Below are positions 7,608 to 45,697 of a stretch of 47,942 bases of DNA, piece after piece. Source of the DNA: a virus. A model generated the notes under the pieces. The model worked only from the letters and a program-made list of their open reading frames with translations. It was not told the origin of the DNA and did no database searches. Location: positions 1-47,942 of IMG/VR virus record IMGVR_UViG_3300008114_001593, one strand, 5' to 3'. Numbering within the stretch: position 1 is the first letter of the stretch; each line of letters opens with the position of its first letter. The translations under genes were made by a program, and so were the position numbers.

Positions 7608-8056
7608 CAATGTATATTGCACACAGAGGAAACTTAGAAGGTCGTGTCGCTGAACATGAGAATGATCCTGTATATCTCCAAGAAGCGATTACTGAAGGAT
7701 ACATGGTTGAAGTTGATTTATGGTGTTTTGATGGTCAACTAAAACTTGGGCATGATGAAAAATTTCACGATGTAACTTTTGATTGGTTATTTGAAAGAAA
7801 GCCATTCATTCTTAATCATTGTAAGAATCGTGAAGCCCTTGATACTGTATTGAGAAATTATCTACATGGTTTTTGGCACACCGATGAGGATTATGTACTA
7901 ACTACCTTCGGATATACTGTTGGATACCCAGGAAAAGAGCCGGTTGGTCAAACTTTCATACTTGGAGTGCCTGAAAGAGTGTATGCATTAGATGATATCA
8001 AGCACCGAATCACCTTTGGAGTAATGTCTGACTATGTAAAACTGCTAAATACATAA
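7604..8056 (+). CDS. short glycerophosphodiester phosphodiesterase-like protein
   Basis: A 150-residue protein with the start of the GDPD TIM barrel: AHRGN (His7-Arg8), VEVDLW with Glu36 and Asp38, and LGHD with His50. These are the catalytic His pair and metal acids of the family. Ordinary family members are 230-250 residues, so this is a minimal or truncated form. It could hydrolyse glycerophosphodiester or another phosphodiester in a glycan. A second ATG at 7610 is possible. No signal peptide, so it is cytoplasmic. Confidence 0.7.
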   Translation: MTMYIAHRGNLEGRVAEHENDPVYLQEAITEGYMVEVDLWCFDGQLKLGHDEKFHDVTFDWLFERKPFILNHCKNREALDTVLRNYLHGFWHTDEDYVLTTFGYTVGYPGKEPVGQTFILGVPERVYALDDIKHRITFGVMSDYVKLLNT

Positions 8057-8096: not shown

Positions 8097-10409
8097 ATGG
8101 ATTTTAAGCAGTTCCTAGAAGAACAAAAAGAAAAGCATGCCGTTCTAGCATTCGGGCGCATGAATCCACCAACAGTTGGTCACGCCAAACTTGTTGACAA
8201 AGTAAAAGAGGTTGCAAAAGAAGTTGGTGGCTCACACCATGTTGTAATCTCTCACTCACAAGACGAAAAAAAGAATCCTTTATCCGCACAGGATAAACTC
8301 AAACACGCAAAAAGATTCTTTCCAGATACAAATCTGAGCACCTCAGATAAAGAACATCCAACATTTCTTCAACACGCCGCTAAGTTACATAAAGCCGGCG
8401 CTACACACTTGCATATGATTGCAGGTTCTGACCGAGTTGATGAATATAAAAGTAAATTAGCGCAGTACAATGGCAAACACAAAGGCGCATTGTATAACTT
8501 CAAACACATAACTGTCCATTCAGCCGGTGAGCGTGATCCTGATGCTGAAGGCGTTTCTGGTATGTCTGCATCCAAGATGCGTGGTCATGCTGAAAATGGT
8601 AACTTCAAAGAATTCAAAAAAGGTATTCCTAAGCATGTAGCACCAGAACATGCAAAAGAATTGTACCATGATGTGCGTAAAGGCATGAACATCAAAGAAG
8701 ATGTAAACTATTTCTTTGAGCAGTTATTGACCGAAGGCGTACATGACAAAGCAATCTTCAAAGCAGTATTTCTATCTGGTGGTCCTGGTTCTGGTAAAGA
8801 TTATGTACTAGATAACACACTTGCTGGTCATGGTCTAACAGAAATCAATTCAGATAAAGCACTAGAATTCTTGATGGACAAAAAGAATCTAGACAAGACA
8901 ATGCCAGCATCCGAAAAAGAGGCTCGGGATATCGTTCGTGGTAAAGCAAAAGACTTGACTGAATTGCGACAGCGTTTAGCATTGTTAGGTCGCAATGGCC
9001 TTATCATCAATGGCACTGGCGATGATCCAAAGAAGTATGCTAAAATCAAAAAAGAATTAGAAGAACTTGGTTACGAAACTTCAATGATTGCTGTCAATAC
9101 AAAAGATGAAGTTTCATCAAAGCGTAACATTGAACGTGGTCAGCGTGGTGGTCGTACTGTACCAGAAAACATTCGTAAAGAAAAATGGGATGCAGTAAAT
9201 AACGCACGACCTGAAATGGCTAGTTTGTTTGGTAAAAATTATATGGAGTTTGATAACTCTGAAGATTTGAGAAGCGCACAGCCAGAAGTTGTAAAAGCAA
9301 AGAAAGAAGAATTGTTACAACTGTATAAGGGCATACAAGACTTTGTTAAAAGACCACCTAAGAATCAACAAGCATCTTCATGGATTGCTGGTGAATTATC
9401 TAAGAAAGATACATTACCAGTTCCTAAGAAAGGTGCTGAACAAATGGGACCAGATGGTTCTGGTGCAGCCGAAGAAGCACGAAAACTTGGACTACAATAT
9501 TTTGGTTTTGGTCGTTATGGCAAAAATGGCAAAGTAACTCATCATTCTGTACATGACAAACTTGTACAGGATCCTACCCATGTAGAACAACAAAAGATGG
9601 CTAAGAAAGCGGCTAATGTTACCGCCAGTGGAGCCAGCGGAAGTGTTCCGAAGAAAAAAGTAAACGAATCTATGTTGAACGAAGCTATAACCGTTACGTT
9701 TACTGCTGATACTGCTGATGAATTGAATCAAGCATTTCAGATGTTTAATAAGAATGATAAAGAGGCTGACGTTGAAGAAGAAACCTCGTATCAACTTTCC
9801 AATAGTAATGCATATAATGTTTTGACATTAGGAACTGATATGTTGAGAGAGGAAATCAGTCCTTTCAAACAAAAAGTTAAGCATTCTGATGGGCATACAT
9901 ATGTTGGCAAAGATAATAGACCTAGAATTTTTGCTATAAGAAACAACGCCGCTAAAGAAGCACATCGTCAAGATGGTGAAGTTGTGAGACATGAAAAAGG
10001 TTACATGGTTAAATTAAAGGAGAGTACAGATGCTAAAACTAATCAAGAGTTTCTTCAAGAAACCAACACCACCAGTGGAAGAGAAACATCCGCTAGACAT
10101 TCAGAAATATCAGGCACCATCACCTGCGCCCCAGGCAGTGGAACCGTTACCATCACCGAGCATTGTGGAGACTCCAGCTCCCACACCGGTGACGGAAGCG
10201 CCTACGATCCAACCAGAAGCGAAAGTAGAATCAAAGGCAAAATCTACCTCTCCCAAGTCAAAGAGCAGTGGAAGAAGAAAATCAACGAAATCGACCAAGG
10301 CATAGAACCTGGGATGTCAATGGCTGCTGGAGGTGAATCTATCAGCCGTGACATGGGTGAAGTCATTGGTAAGAATGGCAAAGCAACACCATTAAAGAAG
10401 AAAGTATAA
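8097..10409 (+). CDS. multidomain cytidylyltransferase / P-loop kinase virion-associated protein
   Basis: A 770-residue protein. Residues 14-180 form a nucleotidyltransferase of the HxGH class (FGRMNPPTVGH at 19-29, SGMSASKMRG near 154-163). Residues 222 to about 400 are a P-loop kinase-like domain with LSGGPGSGKD at 226-235. The rest is charged, linker-rich sequence. Similar two-domain proteins occur in T4-like phages near structural genes; role in the particle or in nucleotide or NAD metabolism is unresolved. From about residue 645 to 710 the sequence turns into unusual Thr/Ser/Gly-rich text that coincides with a second ORF in another frame (10030-10305). The last 50 residues look normal again. 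Confidence 0.72.
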   Translation: MDFKQFLEEQKEKHAVLAFGRMNPPTVGHAKLVDKVKEVAKEVGGSHHVVISHSQDEKKNPLSAQDKLKHAKRFFPDTNLSTSDKEHPTFLQHAAKLHKAGATHLHMIAGSDRVDEYKSKLAQYNGKHKGALYNFKHITVHSAGERDPDAEGVSGMSASKMRGHAENGNFKEFKKGIPKHVAPEHAKELYHDVRKGMNIKEDVNYFFEQLLTEGVHDKAIFKAVFLSGGPGSGKDYVLDNTLAGHGLTEINSDKALEFLMDKKNLDKTMPASEKEARDIVRGKAKDLTELRQRLALLGRNGLIINGTGDDPKKYAKIKKELEELGYETSMIAVNTKDEVSSKRNIERGQRGGRTVPENIRKEKWDAVNNARPEMASLFGKNYMEFDNSEDLRSAQPEVVKAKKEELLQLYKGIQDFVKRPPKNQQASSWIAGELSKKDTLPVPKKGAEQMGPDGSGAAEEARKLGLQYFGFGRYGKNGKVTHHSVHDKLVQDPTHVEQQKMAKKAANVTASGASGSVPKKKVNESMLNEAITVTFTADTADELNQAFQMFNKNDKEADVEEETSYQLSNSNAYNVLTLGTDMLREEISPFKQKVKHSDGHTYVGKDNRPRIFAIRNNAAKEAHRQDGEVVRHEKGYMVKLKESTDAKTNQEFLQETNTTSGRETSARHSEISGTITCAPGSGTVTITEHCGDSSSHTGDGSAYDPTRSESRIKGKIYLSQVKEQWKKKINEIDQGIEPGMSMAAGGESISRDMGEVIGKNGKATPLKKKV
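10030..10305 (+). CDS. candidate overprinted proline-rich small protein
   Basis: A 91-residue ORF wholly inside the large upstream gene, in the +1 frame. It has AAAGGAG about 7 bases before its ATG, a better start signal than many genes here. The product begins MLKLIKSFFKKPTPPVEEKH, continues as Pro/Ala/Glu-rich sequence and ends in a Lys/Ser-rich tail. This resembles a small phage membrane-associated or scaffold-type protein, while the same bases in the host frame give an odd Thr/Ser/Gly stretch. Either this is a true overlapping gene, or one of the two frames is spurious here. Function unknown. Confidence 0.5.
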   Translation: MLKLIKSFFKKPTPPVEEKHPLDIQKYQAPSPAPQAVEPLPSPSIVETPAPTPVTEAPTIQPEAKVESKAKSTSPKSKSSGRRKSTKSTKA

Positions 10410-16993: not shown

Positions 16994-17616
16994 TGGAACT
17001 AACAAAACAACAACTAAAACAATTGCTTCCAAAAAATCCATACATTGACCATTGGCACCATGCCTTGGAACAATTGTTGCCAGATTATGAAATCAATACA
17101 CCACAGCGTATTGCCGCTTTCATTGCTCAATGCTCACATGAATCTGGTGGTTTCACAGCATTACAAGAAAATCTAAACTACAAGCCAGCAACTATTCGTA
17201 AGTTGTTTGGTAAATACTTCCCAACAGATGAATTAGCAAATGAATATTGCTCTAAGCCAAACAAACAAGAAGCTATTGCAAACCGCATCTATGCATCACG
17301 CATGGGTAATGGTGATGAATCATCTGGTGATGGTTACAGATACCGTGGTCGTGGTCTGATTCAATTGACTGGTAAAGATAACTATACATTCTTTGCTGGT
17401 TCACTACAAATTTCTGTAGAAGAAGCAGCCGAGTATATGGCTACATTTGAAGGAGCCGCACAGTCAGCTTGCTGGTTCTGGGAAACAAACAATCTAAACC
17501 AATGGGCTGATAAAGGTGATATTGTTACACTAACAAAACGAATCAACGGTGGCACCATTGGTCTTGATGACCGCATTAAACACTACGAACATGCACTTCA
17601 TGTTTTAGGAGTTTGA
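16993..17616 (+). CDS. endolysin, GH19 chitinase-like lysozyme
   Basis: A 207-residue glycoside hydrolase family 19 type lysozyme that cleaves peptidoglycan at lysis. Catalytic Glu50 in QCSHESGGF and second Glu59 in LQENLNY are present, then YRYRGRGLIQLTGKDNY and CWFWETNNLNQWAD, diagnostic for GH19. No signal peptide, so release should need a holin. Overlaps the o-spanin stop by one base. Confidence 0.93.
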   Translation: MELTKQQLKQLLPKNPYIDHWHHALEQLLPDYEINTPQRIAAFIAQCSHESGGFTALQENLNYKPATIRKLFGKYFPTDELANEYCSKPNKQEAIANRIYASRMGNGDESSGDGYRYRGRGLIQLTGKDNYTFFAGSLQISVEEAAEYMATFEGAAQSACWFWETNNLNQWADKGDIVTLTKRINGGTIGLDDRIKHYEHALHVLGV

Positions 17617-18623: not shown

Positions 18624-18830
18624 ATGAAATCACTAGTATTATCAATCGCATTGTTATTTGGTATGACAACCGCAGTTTATGCTGAGGCTGAAAAGACCAA
18701 GGTATGTGTAGATGTTAAAGACAAAGATGGCAAGCCAGTTAAAGATGCCAAAGGCAATGTGAAACAGAATTGCAAGGAAATGAAAGTCCACAAGAAACTA
18801 GAGGGCACAGAAGTTCCTGTGAAGAAATAA
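18624..18830 (+). CDS. exported small protein
   Basis: A 68-residue protein with a clear Sec signal peptide (MKSLVLSIALLFGMTTAVYA, cleavage likely after residue 20) and a Lys/Asp-rich mature part with VCVDVKDKDGKPVKDAKG and two Cys. AAGGA precedes the ATG. Secreted into the periplasm by inference. Phage-encoded exported proteins of this size are uncommon; no function known. Confidence 0.6.
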   Translation: MKSLVLSIALLFGMTTAVYAEAEKTKVCVDVKDKDGKPVKDAKGNVKQNCKEMKVHKKLEGTEVPVKK

Positions 18831-20915: not shown

Positions 20916-21503
20916 ATGGGAAGAAAAAGTGTTTATAGCGTGGGTCAATTTTTTGGTAAACTTGAAGTATTGGAGATATTACCATCAAATGGCGCAGGAA
21001 GTCACGTAAATCTTAGATGTTTGTGTCATTATTGTAATAAAGAAACCATTAAATATGCGGGAAACATAAAAAAAAGAAATAGTTGTGGTTGTCAACAAAA
21101 CAATAGCTCCGAATGGAAAAATGTTGGTCCAAAAAATAAACCTTGGCAACTACCATTTGGTCATGCTGCCAGAAACGGTCTGGAGTATCAATATAAAAGA
21201 GGCGCAGCCAAAAGAAATTTAGAATATACTTTGACAATGGAAGAATTTGATGAACTTGTTATAGGAGACTGTCATTATTGTGGAACAGAAACGCCAGCGA
21301 CAGCAAGAGGTCAAGGAAAAACTAGTGGCGATTTTAAGTATACGGGAATTGATAGAATAGATTCAAAAAAAGGATATGTTAAGTATAATTGTGTATCATG
21401 TTGTTGGATATGTAACAACATGAAAGGAACAACAAATGATGAAGATTTTATAAAACATATTGAAAAAATATATAGACACAAAAAGAAGGAAAAAATGATA
21501 TGA
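20916..21503 (+). CDS. HNH homing endonuclease
   Basis: A 195-residue protein with AGGAG before its ATG. N-terminal CLCHYCNK and SCGCQQ give a zinc-binding region; the C-terminal HNH-like finger has CHYCGTETP, GIDRIDSKKGY and CCWICNNMKG, the pattern of phage free-standing HNH nucleases that cut and spread by homing. It lies between thyX and nrdA, a frequent site for such genes in T4-like phages, and overlaps the nrdA start. Confidence 0.82.
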   Translation: MGRKSVYSVGQFFGKLEVLEILPSNGAGSHVNLRCLCHYCNKETIKYAGNIKKRNSCGCQQNNSSEWKNVGPKNKPWQLPFGHAARNGLEYQYKRGAAKRNLEYTLTMEEFDELVIGDCHYCGTETPATARGQGKTSGDFKYTGIDRIDSKKGYVKYNCVSCCWICNNMKGTTNDEDFIKHIEKIYRHKKKEKMI

Positions 21504-22717
21504 ATATCGTTCACGGTATTAGGGTAGACTATTCCCGGGATAATTTGTTTGATGAACTTGGAATAAAACGATTAAAAGAAAGTTACATGAAAGATGAAGA
21601 AGTCTCGCCTCAAGAAAGATTTGCTTTCGTTTCTAGGGCTTTTGGATCAGACAACGAACATGCCCAAAGACTTTATGACTATTCTTCAAGACATTGGTTG
21701 TCTTATTCTACTCCTATTCTCAGCTTTGGGCGTTCTAAGCGTGGCCTTCCTATATCATGCTTCTTACCTTATCTACATGATAGCGCAGAAGGCTTGGTTG
21801 ATTGTCTATCGGAAGTAAATTGGTTGTCTATGTTAGGTGGAGGTATTGGAATTGGTCTTGGTATTCGTTCTGCTGATGATAAATCTACTGGCATTATGCC
21901 TCATCTTCGCACTTATGATGCATCCTCACTCGCTTACCGCCAAGGGCGGACTCGCCGCGGTAGTTATGCTACTTACTTGGATATCTCTCATCCCGATATT
22001 CTCATATTTCTTGAAATGAGAAAGCCAACAGGCGACCAGAATATGCGTTGCTTGAATCTGCACCAAGGTATCAATATTACCGATGACTTCATGCAGTTGA
22101 TTGAAAAATCTATGCTTGATCCACATGCTGATGATACATGGGAACTAAAAGATCCACACAGCGGTGAAGTGCGTGATACAATACCAGCAAGAGAATTGTG
22201 GCAAAGAATTCTTGAAGCACGAATGCTAACTGGTGAACCATACCTACATTTCATTGACACAAGCAATCGTGCTATGCCACAGTTTCAGAAAGATTTGGGA
22301 TTGAGCATTAGACAAAGTAATTTGTGTAGTGAGATTATTCTGCCAACAGATAAAGAGCGAACAGCAGTATGTTGCCTATCATCTGTAAATTTGGAGTACT
22401 ATGATGAATGGAAAAATGATGCCCTATTCCTTAAGGACATTGCTGAAATGCTTGATAATGTTCTGGAGTATTTTATTGTTAATGCACCTGATACCATTTC
22501 CAGGGCTAAGTACTCTGCTAGCCGTGAGCGTTCTATTGGCATTGGTGCCTTAGGCTTCCATGCATTCCTACAGAAAAGTAACATTGCATTTGAAGGTGTC
22601 ATGGCTAAAGTTATGAACAACCAAATGTTCAAACATATTAAGGAGAAACTTGATGAAGCGAATCTTCAATTGGGCTCTGAGCGAGGCAGTCCTCCTGATT
22701 GTGATGGTACTGGATAA
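21500..22717 (+). CDS. nrdA: ribonucleotide reductase alpha subunit, N-terminal fragment (interrupted)
   Basis: The first 405 residues of a class Ia/II-like reductase large subunit. Active-site elements present: Cys87 (first redox Cys), NLCSEI with Asn274, Cys276, Glu278, and the Cys291/292 site. It stops directly after GSERGSPPDCDGTG, where family members continue into the phosphate-binding segment (pattern APTATSSIIxGNTSPSIEP). That segment of roughly 50 residues is absent, and the reading frame shifts into the C-terminal piece. ATG 21500 has AAGGA upstream. Likely inactive unless the missing piece is supplied from elsewhere. Confidence 0.85.
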   Translation: MNIVHGIRVDYSRDNLFDELGIKRLKESYMKDEEVSPQERFAFVSRAFGSDNEHAQRLYDYSSRHWLSYSTPILSFGRSKRGLPISCFLPYLHDSAEGLVDCLSEVNWLSMLGGGIGIGLGIRSADDKSTGIMPHLRTYDASSLAYRQGRTRRGSYATYLDISHPDILIFLEMRKPTGDQNMRCLNLHQGINITDDFMQLIEKSMLDPHADDTWELKDPHSGEVRDTIPARELWQRILEARMLTGEPYLHFIDTSNRAMPQFQKDLGLSIRQSNLCSEIILPTDKERTAVCCLSSVNLEYYDEWKNDALFLKDIAEMLDNVLEYFIVNAPDTISRAKYSASRERSIGIGALGFHAFLQKSNIAFEGVMAKVMNNQMFKHIKEKLDEANLQLGSERGSPPDCDGTG

Positions 22718-23159
22718 AATTATCATTAAATTTTTACAACATGGTGATCCAGAACAAGCAGTTGACCAAGCAGAAGTTGATGAAATATGGTCTTCAATCA
22801 TTGCAAACGATGGCTCAGTACAACATCTATCATGGATGGATGAAAATACAAAAGAGGTGTTCAAGACTTCAATGGAGATTGACCAGCGTTGGGTTGTTGA
22901 ACACGCCGCAGATAGACAGCATTACATTGACCAAGCACAGTCATTGAATCTATTCTTTAGACCAGATGTAAATGTTAAGTACCTCCATGCTTGCTACTTC
23001 CTAGCATGGAAGAAAGGCCTCAAGACATTGTACTATTGCCGTAGTGAGAAATTGGCTAAGGCTGACAAAGTATCAAAACGAATTGAGCGTGATGTTATCA
23101 AAGAAATTGACATGACACAAATTGCACAGGGCAACGAATGTTTAGCATGTGAAGGATGA
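22653..23159 (+). CDS. nrdA: ribonucleotide reductase alpha subunit, C-terminal fragment
   Basis: A 168-residue ORF overlapping the N-terminal fragment by 65 bases. From about residue 20 it matches the end of NrdA: VLDKIIIKFL, EIWSSIIANDGSVQHL, IDQRWVVEHAADRQHYIDQ, LKTLYYCRSEKLAKAD, and the redox tail NECLACEG. The first 18 residues are out-of-frame NrdA. A good Shine-Dalgarno AAGGAGA stands before its ATG, so it can be translated alone. Compare the split nrdA of phage Aeh1, which is functional; here an internal block is lost, so function is doubtful. Confidence 0.82.
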   Translation: MKRIFNWALSEAVLLIVMVLDKIIIKFLQHGDPEQAVDQAEVDEIWSSIIANDGSVQHLSWMDENTKEVFKTSMEIDQRWVVEHAADRQHYIDQAQSLNLFFRPDVNVKYLHACYFLAWKKGLKTLYYCRSEKLAKADKVSKRIERDVIKEIDMTQIAQGNECLACEG

Positions 23160-25108: not shown

Positions 25109-25937
25109 ATATTGGGGTGTTAATGCTTTTGGGCATGATGCATCTTTATGTGTTGTTGAGAATGATATGGTAATATTCCATAAATTGAGTGGTGGTGAAT
25201 TTTTGACAGAGGGCGTTGTTGATGATGCATTGTCATTTGGCAAGCCTGATGTAATTTGTTACTATGAGAATCCTTTGTTGAAACGAACAAGACAATTGTA
25301 TTCTGGCGAATGGAATAAAGCATTCAACATGTTGACACCAAAGTTACACATGTTGGAGTTTGGTATAAATTGCCCGATAAAGTATGTTGGTCATCATCAT
25401 AGCCATGCCGCGGCATCTTACTTGACAAGCGAATTAAATGATGCTATAATATTAGTTGCTGATGCTATTGGTGAATGGGAAACAGTTACAGTTTGGCATG
25501 CGGTTGGTAATAACTTAACCAAACTTGATAGTCACAGATATCCATTTAGTTTGGGTTTGTTTTATACAGCATTCTCCAAATTATATGGTGTTAGTGAAAG
25601 AGAATTTATGAAGTTGAGTGTTGATGAATATCCAATACACTATGTAAAGGCAAAAAAATATCTGGATATAAATTTGCATAAGGGAATAAAAGATTGGGGT
25701 GAAGTGGATAAAAATCTACCAGCTTCGGTCCAAAAGGTCTTTGTTGATGCACTTATAGATATTGTTAAACCATTTAAGGGAATGTCAAATAATTTATTGA
25801 TGGCTGGTGGGTGTGCATTTAATGAATTAGCAGTTAAACAATTAAACGCAAGAGTTACAATTAGTCCTGGTGATTCCAGTTCCTCCATTGGTGCTGTTGC
25901 GGCATATTTAAATAAAAGATTAAAAGGAAATAAATGA
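25101..25937 (+). CDS. carbamoyltransferase-like protein (NodU/TobZ family, short)
   Basis: A 278-residue protein with the Kae1-like N-terminal domain of NodU/TobZ carbamoyltransferases: WGVNAFGHDAS, KYVGHHHSHAAASYL (metal His), ILVADAIGE, LLMAGGCAFNELA and PGDSSSSIGAVAAY. Full enzymes are near 550 residues and carry a second domain that is absent here. It may form the activation half only, or a reduced enzyme. ATG 25101 is chosen; ATG 25092 is also possible. Adjacent to an SGNH hydrolase. Confidence 0.75.
   Translation: MVRYWGVNAFGHDASLCVVENDMVIFHKLSGGEFLTEGVVDDALSFGKPDVICYYENPLLKRTRQLYSGEWNKAFNMLTPKLHMLEFGINCPIKYVGHHHSHAAASYLTSELNDAIILVADAIGEWETVTVWHAVGNNLTKLDSHRYPFSLGLFYTAFSKLYGVSEREFMKLSVDEYPIHYVKAKKYLDINLHKGIKDWGEVDKNLPASVQKVFVDALIDIVKPFKGMSNNLLMAGGCAFNELAVKQLNARVTISPGDSSSSIGAVAAYLNKRLKGNK
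25422..25450 (+). promoter_or_regulatory. consensus sigma70 promoter inside carbamoyltransferase gene
   Basis: TTGACA at 25422-25427, 17-base spacer, TATAAT at 25445-25450. It is a perfect match inside coding sequence, about 480 bases before nrdB. It could feed nrdB separately, or be a chance match in AT-rich DNA. Confidence 0.45.
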
Positions 25938-26926
25938 TTAAGAAAACAACAAGCAGACTAACGGATGAAAGAAATCATTTCAAGCCGTTCAATTATCCAT
26001 GGGCCTATGAATCATGGCTAAAGCATGAACAATCGCATTGGTTGCACACCGAGGTGCCGATGCTTGAAGATGTGAAAGATTGGAAGAAGAAACTAACCAA
26101 TGAAGAAAAACAATTTCTAACGCACATCTTCCGTTTCTTCACACAAGGTGATATTGACGTAGCTGGTGGTTATGTAAAGAATTATCTACCACATTTTCCA
26201 CAGCCTGAGGTGCGTATGATGTTGATGGGCTTTGCCGCAAGAGAAGCATTGCACGTAGCCGCATACAGTCACCTAATTGAAACTCTTGGGCTACCAGAGA
26301 CAACATACAATCAATTTTTAGACTACCAAGAAATGAAGGACAAACATGATTACGTTTTGGATATATCTCTACAAAATGATTCAAGTAGTTCTGTTGCTAC
26401 TCATATTGCAGTATTCAGTGCTTTCACCGAAGGGATGCAACTATTCAGTTCCTTTATCATGTTACTTAACTTCCCTAGAACCGGTAAAATGAAGGGCATG
26501 GGTCAGATTGTGACATGGTCTATAGTTGATGAAACTATGCATGCCGAGTCCATGATTAAGTTGTTCCGCACGTACATTGAAGAAAACAAGGAAATATGGA
26601 ACGATGAACTTAAAGGAAAAATCTATTCTATTGCTGAGAAAATGGTTCAGTTGGAAGACAAGTTTATTGATTTGGCATTCAGTATGGGTCCTATGGATCG
26701 CCTTACTGCTGATGATGTTAAACAATATATTCGTTACATTGCTGACCGTAGGCTTATTAGTTTGGGTCTTAAGGGAATAATGAAAGTGAAACGCAATCCA
26801 TTGCCTTGGGTGGAAGAAATGATTAATGCACCAACGCATACCAATTTCTTTGAGAATAGATCCACTGATTACTCAAAGGGTGCCCTATCTGGTACATGGG
26901 ACGATGTTTGGGGCAAGGCTGCATAA
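25934..26926 (+). CDS. nrdB: ribonucleotide reductase beta subunit NrdB (class Ia)
   Basis: A 330-residue small subunit that houses the diiron-tyrosyl radical. Ligands and radical site are all visible: an Asp at 73 or 75, Glu104, His107 and Tyr111 in REALHVAAY, Glu166 in TEGMQLF, Glu200 and His203 in DETMHAE. Glu104-3-His-4-Tyr spacing equals that of E. coli NrdB. AAAGGA precedes the ATG, which overlaps the upstream stop. It looks intact, in contrast to nrdA. Confidence 0.95.
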   Translation: MIKKTTSRLTDERNHFKPFNYPWAYESWLKHEQSHWLHTEVPMLEDVKDWKKKLTNEEKQFLTHIFRFFTQGDIDVAGGYVKNYLPHFPQPEVRMMLMGFAAREALHVAAYSHLIETLGLPETTYNQFLDYQEMKDKHDYVLDISLQNDSSSSVATHIAVFSAFTEGMQLFSSFIMLLNFPRTGKMKGMGQIVTWSIVDETMHAESMIKLFRTYIEENKEIWNDELKGKIYSIAEKMVQLEDKFIDLAFSMGPMDRLTADDVKQYIRYIADRRLISLGLKGIMKVKRNPLPWVEEMINAPTHTNFFENRSTDYSKGALSGTWDDVWGKAA

Positions 26927-30514: not shown

Positions 30515-31001
30515 ACAACGATTAATTAAATCTTGGTCATACGCTAATCAGGTAGCTCCAGCGACAACAGGATTTATTAACAATCCTGTTAGTCTTGGTA
30601 GAAGATTTGCGGCACAAGATTCACATCCGCTGTGGTCAAAAGCATTTTCAGAATTTGGCCTTACTCCTGTTTCTGTAGAACCAGTATATAAATGTTTCAC
30701 TGGTAACCATTTTATTGATGGTACTTTTACTCACAAGCATATTGATAGAGCACCTGAAGGACTAGTCCACACCAGATGTAATTTAATGATTAAGAAACCA
30801 CCAATCGGTGGTGATCCAATTCTTGATGATGAAGTTATGCATGTTGAAGAAGGTGATTTATGGTTATGTTTGGCTAGTATGGAGTATCATGCAAGCACGC
30901 CGATACAAGGCGGTGAAAGAATTATATTTTCATTCGGTGGTCTTGTGCCAAAAGAACAAATCAATAATCTATTATGCATTACACAAAACGATTCAAACTA
31001 A
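30498..31001 (+). CDS. 2-oxoglutarate/Fe(II) oxygenase-like protein
   Basis: A 167-residue double-stranded beta-helix protein. THKHIDRAPEG holds the HxD metal pair, and MEYHASTPIQGGERIIFSFGG supplies the distal His and the Arg that binds oxoglutarate. Similar hydroxylases are frequent in cyanophage-type phages next to tail genes. The start is TTG 30498 or GTG 30504, both weak, within an overlap with the cupin gene. Substrate unknown; a virion protein residue is plausible. Confidence 0.7.
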   Translation: MFVRVKQRLIKSWSYANQVAPATTGFINNPVSLGRRFAAQDSHPLWSKAFSEFGLTPVSVEPVYKCFTGNHFIDGTFTHKHIDRAPEGLVHTRCNLMIKKPPIGGDPILDDEVMHVEEGDLWLCLASMEYHASTPIQGGERIIFSFGGLVPKEQINNLLCITQNDSN

Positions 31002-31097
31002 ACAAATATAAGTTAGTGCTTGCATACAGCATCAAATGGAAATCATTTCCAGGCGATGATGGTAGATATTATGAGAGTGAAGAAGTTAAGTATATCC

Positions 31098-31126
31098 TTG
31101 ACAATCACACCGGGCTATGGTATAAT
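31098..31126 (+). promoter_or_regulatory. consensus sigma70 promoter, -10 box in terminator loop
   Basis: TTGACA at 31098-31103, 17-base spacer, TATAAT at 31121-31126. The -10 hexamer lies in the loop of the hairpin 31112-31139. Transcripts would start near 31133, inside the right arm, and so lack the full hairpin. Confidence 0.82.
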
Positions 31127-31146
31127 GTTACTATAGCCCTTTTTTA
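31112..31146 (+). terminator. rho-independent terminator with embedded promoter
   Basis: GGGCTAT (31112-31118) pairs with ATAGCCC (31133-31139), 14-base loop, then a run of six T. It would stop readthrough from the oxygenase gene. The exonuclease promoter occupies its loop and left arm. Confidence 0.72.
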
Positions 31147-31159
31147 TTGGAGAAATAAA

Positions 31160-31744
31160 ATTTTTATATTTGATGTTGAAACTCTCGGTAAAGATTCCGA
31201 TGCCGTGATATTATCCATGGCCGCAATCTATTTTGATCCAGATAAAGAGCCGAGCCATACTCAATTAAGAGAGTCCGCATTCTTTTGTAAGTTTGATGTA
31301 AAGCAACAAATCAAAGACTTCAATCGGAAAGTGGACAGAGGTACCGTTGAATGGTGGTCCAAACAATGTGAGAATGCACGGAACAAATCATTTAAGCCAC
31401 ATCCAAATGATGTGCCATTTGAGATTGGTTACAGTGCAATGAGCCAATGGGTCAAATCAAAGAATGATAATAATTGTTGGGTATGGGCTAGAGGCAATTT
31501 GGATCAGATGGTACTGAGCCACATTGAGGATCAAATGAACCTTGAGAATATCTGGTCATATGCTAGATGGCGTGATGTACGAACTGCAATTGATTTTCTA
31601 TATGGCACCAAGAATGGATATGTGGATGTGGACACACCAGCCTGGGTAGAAGCATTTGATTCAAAGCTACATATTACAAAGCACAATCCAATTGATGATT
31701 GTATATTTGATGCCATGCAATTAATGTACGGAAAGAAAAGCTAA
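31160..31744 (+). CDS. DexA-like 3'-5' exonuclease (DEDD) with AUU start
   Basis: A 194-residue exonuclease of the DnaQ-like DEDD class as in T4 DexA. Motifs: IFDVETLG (Asp-x-Glu), NLDQMVLSH (exo II Asp), and KHNPIDDCIFDA (exo III, His and Asp). No ATG, GTG or TTG fits the N-terminus: GGAG at 31149-31152 is 7 bases before the ATT at 31160, and homologues start with M-F-[VI]-x-D-V-E-T. The longer frame from 30974 crosses the promoter and terminator and is not a likely start. AUU initiation is therefore the best reading; a sequencing change of ATG is the alternative. Confidence 0.8.
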   Translation: MFIFDVETLGKDSDAVILSMAAIYFDPDKEPSHTQLRESAFFCKFDVKQQIKDFNRKVDRGTVEWWSKQCENARNKSFKPHPNDVPFEIGYSAMSQWVKSKNDNNCWVWARGNLDQMVLSHIEDQMNLENIWSYARWRDVRTAIDFLYGTKNGYVDVDTPAWVEAFDSKLHITKHNPIDDCIFDAMQLMYGKKS

Positions 31745-45310: not shown

Positions 45311-45697
45311 ATGGGAACACGTTGTTTGACTTATGTTTATGAGGTTAATGAGCCTATCGTTTGTTTGTATCGCCAGTTTGATGGTTATCCATCTGGTCAT
45401 GGTGCAGAGTTGGCTGACTTTCTAAATAAAATTGAAGTCGGCAATGGTATCCTCGGCAAGCCTGAAATGGGTGAATTTGCTAACGGCATGGGCTGTCTAG
45501 CCGCTCAACTAATTGCACACTTCAAAAAATCCGTTGGTGGTTTTTATATCCATGCGATAACGGATTCTGTTGGTGTGGATTATGAGTACCATGTTTATGC
45601 CAATAAAGTTGTGGTAAAAGATTCCGATGAAGAAGTTGTTTTTTCAGGGTCACAGAATGACTTTGTTGAATATTGCAAAGCGGAGAATAATGCGTAA
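45311..45697 (+). CDS. conserved hypothetical phage protein
   Basis: A 128-residue protein: MGTRCLTYVYEVNE, LYRQFDGYPSGHGAELADFL and ANGMGCLAAQLIAHFK are a well-known conserved pattern in myophage and other phage proteins of unknown function. GGAG before the ATG. Confidence 0.75.
   Translation: MGTRCLTYVYEVNEPIVCLYRQFDGYPSGHGAELADFLNKIEVGNGILGKPEMGEFANGMGCLAAQLIAHFKKSVGGFYIHAITDSVGVDYEYHVYANKVVVKDSDEEVVFSGSQNDFVEYCKAENNA

Follow-up and report, generated by a model that had tools for sequence, protein, structure and literature searches.

The nrdA gene of the phage contig analyzed in this study, which encodes a class I RNR large subunit, is interrupted by the loss of a conserved segment of 152 bp. 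This gap is probably an assembly or library-preparation error confined to this single contig, the real nrdA gene of the phage being intact. The window, meaning the whole stretch of DNA analyzed, comprises 47,942 bases and corresponds to the IMG/VR virus record IMGVR_UViG_3300008114_001593. The features discussed below are compiled in Table 1.

Table 1. Positions of the features discussed (window coordinates, unless a contig or the sibling is named).
Feature	Position	Strand	Description
HNH/endonuclease VII-like gene	20916..21503	+	Between the thyX-like gene and nrdA; same gene in the sibling
nrdA, N-terminal piece	21500..22717	+	405-aa ORF; stop codon at 22715-22717; residues 1-404/405 match the intact sibling
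nrdA junction	22711..22713	+	TGG, three shared bases; sibling (G001) 8799-8950 (152 bp) absent
nrdA, C-terminal remainder	22714..23159	+	Different frame; residues ~456-603; Tyr pair and C-terminal CLACEG retained
Substitution	22995	+	T in the window, C in the sibling; His550 (invariant in 77 relatives) to Tyr
nrdB	25934..26926	+	RNR small subunit; intact
Second contig-specific junction	31095..31096	+	Sibling (G001) 17333-17459 (127 bp) absent; no shared bases
nrdA split by HNH homing-endonuclease gene	L082:937-3487; L072:39-2616; L091:2135-4229		Insertion at codons 401-405

The nrdA break and the intact sibling gene

The N-terminal ORF terminates in GSERGSPPDCDGTG, and the remainder restarts at VLDKIII in another reading frame, its mechanically derived ORF extending from 22650 to 23159 with the first ATG at 22704. 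The ORF coordinates thus agree with the preliminary description, which had placed a frame-changing break at this point. Profile PF02867 (Ribonuc_red_lgC) matched the window in two pieces (profile positions 2-354 and 438-522), leaving out positions 355-437. A third match was absent across the whole 47.9-kb record, and the possibility that the missing segment lies elsewhere in the record was accordingly rejected.

When viral contigs were scanned, the N-terminal piece serving as the query, the contig IMGVR_UViG_3300032116_000833 (32,350 bp; G001, loci L003/L086/L087) was retrieved. This contig, hereafter the sibling, is ~99.9% identical to the window on both sides of the junction, over 8.8 kb to the left and 8.4 kb to the right. 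The nrdA gene of the sibling is intact and encodes a protein of 603 aa from the ATG (open frame of 611 aa with the upstream codons), the first 405 residues of which (L003) are 100% identical to the N-terminal piece. Its protein matched PF02867 across the barrel with an E-value of 1.2e-103, as expected for a class I RNR large subunit, whereas the window matches the same profile only as two pieces. Alignment to this full-length gene showed that exactly 152 bp are missing from the window (nrdA nt 1215-1366; the placement can shift by as much as 3 nt), the sibling reading ACTGGTCGC at the left end and GTTGGATAA at the right end, which confirms the loss of ~150 bp that had been proposed before. Since 152 is not a multiple of three, the reading frame changes at the junction. 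The shared bases had been given as CTGGAT, and the comparison reduced them to TGG.

The missing residues (~406-455, RRFAHVMAIAPNASSSIIMGNTSPSIEPYRANAYRQDTLSGSSLTKNKWL), spanning RRFAHVMAIAPNASSSII to LTKNKWL, are absent from both ORFs, as had been noted from the sequence, and when 77 relatives were aligned, 33 of the 50 positions proved to be invariant. Among the lost residues is the P-N-A-S-S-S loop, which, judging from E. coli NrdA, should correspond to the substrate-phosphate-binding stretch of class I RNRs. Since neither piece nor any other part of the record supplies these residues, the pieces cannot jointly form the enzyme, and this contradicts a working split enzyme. A functional two-piece enzyme as in phage Aeh1 is therefore hardly conceivable, even though there are two ORFs, nrdB is intact and the catalytic Cys and Tyr motifs are spread over the two pieces, the intact nrdB and the retained Cys motifs being in accordance with the preliminary description. 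Furthermore, the pieces lack the kind of tails that truly split relatives carry, and the start of the second ORF lies within what used to be coding sequence and has no dedicated ribosome-binding site. The Shine-Dalgarno sequence previously ascribed to it, a GAGG-like site ~18 nt from the ATG at 22704, turned out to be ordinary nrdA coding sequence that is unchanged in the intact sibling.

That an intron or mobile element was lost, as also considered earlier, was not supported, since in every intact relative the missing bases form a normal part of the nrdA coding sequence. The same applies to a group I intron or an intein: the missing DNA is coding and stop-free in the sibling, and Rfam matches were found neither in the window nor in two relatives with split nrdA genes (L072 and L082). 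Among the interpretations offered before, an assembly collapse and a defective enzyme thus stand as first and second choices, respectively, while intron or mobile-element loss and a split enzyme were not supported.

Gaps confined to single contigs

The window lacks a second segment of the sibling, 8.4 kb from the first one. This 127-bp gap truncates an ORF of 80 codons, so that each of the two gaps breaks an ORF, and it created the ORF at 30974-31744 as a spurious fusion. Apart from the gaps, a single substitution (position 22995) separates the window from the sibling between 18.8 and 31.1 kb. Outside this interval, two patches dense in substitutions (18692-18791 and 45412-45570) look like local recombination, the remainder being nearly identical.

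A perfect promoter follows the end of the 127-bp gap at a distance of 2 bp. In total, eight exact TTGACA-N17-TATAAT sites were detected in the window (19133, 25422, 26932, 31098, 34672 on the minus strand, 34704, 35511, and 39378), compared to approximately one expected even if one mismatch is tolerated. The promoter at 31098 overlaps the inverted repeat GGGCTAT...ATAGCCC, an arrangement recalling the mobile promoter stem-loop cassettes of T4-type phages. Families of diverged direct repeats (34-47 nt) mark the beginnings of small ORFs between 39664 and 43810, a pattern that suggests duplication of small genes.

To place the two gaps in context, all loci were compared pairwise, yielding 28 clusters of near-identical IMG/VR contigs (≤0.3% mismatches over ≥3 kb; ~60 contigs). 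Three further contigs showed gaps of the same kind: L174 (3300008259_004303) lacks 131 bp at position 652 (no shared bases), L025 (3300008116_005989) lacks 243 bp at position 1692 (one shared base), and L190 (3300008110_001843) lacks 153 bp at positions 7939-7942 (three shared bases). Each of them differs from a sibling by 0-1 mismatches over ~10-14 kb, and each gap breaks an ORF and is confined to one contig, several others retaining the segment. The ORF broken in L190 is, judging from its sequence, presumably a HesB/IscA-like gene. No other gaps of this kind were found in the 28 clusters, so that four of the ~60 contigs examined, including the window, bear them. The control contigs thus resemble the window in the loss of 131-243 bp from one contig, in 0-3 shared bases, in the broken ORF and in the nearly unchanged background. 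They differ in that other genes are affected, and in that the window features two events, the nrdA one affecting a well-known enzyme of the essential type.

The gap sizes of 127, 131, 152 and 153 bp bunch near short-read length. A common largest assembler k-mer is 127; deletion length as the fingerprint of one assembler k-mer was nevertheless rejected, as the lengths of 131, 152, 153, and 243 bp differ from this value. The three control contigs also carry neighbouring dataset numbers (33000081xx-82xx), which was noticed post hoc and hints at a batch effect. Nothing specific on such assembly or library gap artefacts was found in the literature.

A technical cause is preferred mainly because one-off gaps recur in near-identical contigs. 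It is also favoured by the ~99.9% identical sibling carrying both missing segments, by the ratio of two ORF-breaking gaps to one substitution between 18.8 and 31.1 kb, and by the absence of the junction 37-mer from the other viral contigs scanned (0 matches), a scan that may not have covered records close to that of the window. In natural divergence, substitutions far outnumber frame-breaking losses of 100-150 bp. Real harmful deletions are less favoured, since each of them would have to be the majority allele of the sample in a near-unchanged genome. Under the technical explanation, the consensus would have lost 152 bp at 22713/22714 and, by a like event, 127 bp at 31095/31096, either because contig ends were joined across a thinly covered stretch or because chimeric molecules were present, and the population behind the window would carry the 152-bp segment.

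Some observations weaken this explanation. An assembler would need more than three shared bases to make a plain k-mer or overlap join. Moreover, the left end of the nrdA gap lies within ~10 nt of a homing-endonuclease insertion site in three relatives, a coincidence not to be predicted from an artefact, the sole substitution in the surrounding 12 kb hits an invariant His of the same nrdA, and the second gap stops just short of the promoter mentioned above.

Intact and broken nrdA genes among relatives

Four viral scans (three with NrdA queries and one with an HNH protein query) yielded 239 distinct loci, with nrdA in 169 entries. The gene is intact in 163 of these; the six exceptions comprise the window, L039 (stop codon), L067, in which the contig end cuts the gene, and L072, L082, and L091, which contain an HNH gene after nrdA codon ~401-404. 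The deletion was not found in any other of the 169 nrdA-bearing contigs, and the break is consequently not a lineage trait.

A real deletion allele, in which an illegitimate 152-bp deletion inactivates nrdA and the phage relies on its host or another reductase, appears unlikely in view of these numbers. The gene is intact in the sibling, which hardly differs otherwise, and the window harbors an unrelated second ORF-breaking gap of the one-off class also seen in other contigs. In favour of a real deletion, the C to T exchange at 22995, the only substitution nearby, alters an invariant His in the very same gene, and this single change might fit relaxed selection on a decaying gene. Furthermore, the otherwise intact nrdA of L039 has an in-frame stop codon at approximately residue 364 (L039:7087-7089). 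Broken phage RNR genes are also on record (PMC3653736): the nrdD of Aeromonas phage phiAS4 is fragmented, and Campylobacter phage Cpt10 retains a remnant of nrdA.

The left gap end (nrdA nt 1211-1214) coincides with the interval (nt ~1204-1213) in which the HNH gene is inserted in L072, L082 and L091. An endonuclease of a co-infecting relative could have cut nrdA near codon 405, with repair following a one-sided loss of 152 bp, and for T4 homing, illegitimate repair of endonuclease cuts has been described, with extensive degradation and with junctions at microhomologies (PMC2988022). Such damage is nevertheless considered very unlikely: the second gap at 31095 would be unexplained, an endonuclease of this insert family would have to be present in the same sample, and the coincidence was recognized post hoc, its chance being ~1-2% by our own estimate (two endpoints, 1809-nt gene). 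It is likewise highly improbable that failed homing near codon 405 left a real 152-bp scar destroying an essential-type phage gene in nature. The HNH gene located upstream of nrdA is not itself the cause of the difference between the two contigs, as the sibling possesses it as well.

As a probable assembly or library-preparation error, the nrdA gap illustrates that what looks like a striking 'precise deletion' in an uncultivated phage can reflect a loss in one contig. One-contig gaps turned up noticeably often among near-identical IMG/VR contigs, and claims of pseudogenes or split genes from single metagenomic contigs need a comparison with siblings.

Comparison with truly split RNR genes

The useful biology is found next door, in the relatives that are truly split at the same nrdA spot and possess tails that look intein-derived. 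In L072, L082, and L091, the first product (NrdA-a) ends in a tail of ~45 residues with 13 positions invariant among the three. The second product (NrdA-b) bears a short MKVK-like extension ending in WAGKRF in L072 and L082, while the L091 contig ends within the extension. An AlphaFold model of the NrdA-a tail, based on an alignment of the three, comprises five strands (mean pLDDT 86), and its best PDB matches in Foldseek were almost all inteins, together with the hedgehog autoprocessing domain (probability up to 0.99, TM by query ~0.7, rmsd 1.2-1.4; the E-values are ≥0.4, the domain being tiny). In addition, a profile of the three tails matched residues 80-118 of the Pab PolII intein (E 0.013), which we assume to be the region of the conserved T-x-x-H intein motif. 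The tails show NSS where T-x-x-H stands and have neither an intein start nor an intein end. They are therefore predicted to represent a Hint/intein fragment devoid of the catalytic residues, and may be remnants of non-splicing split inteins that hold the halves together like a zipper.

Cellulophaga phage phi13:1 has a split DNA polymerase III alpha gene, and the first half of the polymerase carries a similar tail at its C-terminus (L310:2501-2632); taken alone, this match reached an E-value of 0.6. The second polymerase half begins with MKIINIEQ.

Compared to these three relatives, the window is broken at the same place, the left gap end corresponding to codons 401-405. Hardly any residues are missing from the relatives, which have acquired an endonuclease gene and tails, whereas the window has lost 152 bp and acquired nothing. 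NrdA-a and NrdA-b of Aeh1 reportedly need such tails for assembly, a finding attributed to Crona and others in 2011. Like Aeh1, the nrdA of which is split by mobE (reviewed in PMC2988022), the window contains two nrdA ORFs and an intact nrdB nearby. Unlike in Aeh1, the catalytic core is not complete over both pieces, 50 conserved residues being lost; the pieces are directly joined instead of being separated by an endonuclease gene, and the residues at the junction result from the frame change only, not from added tails. The window also resembles the nrdD of phiAS4, an RNR gene broken in comparison with a near-identical relative and with gaps near the breaking points (PMC3653736), but that case concerns another gene and the genome of an isolate.
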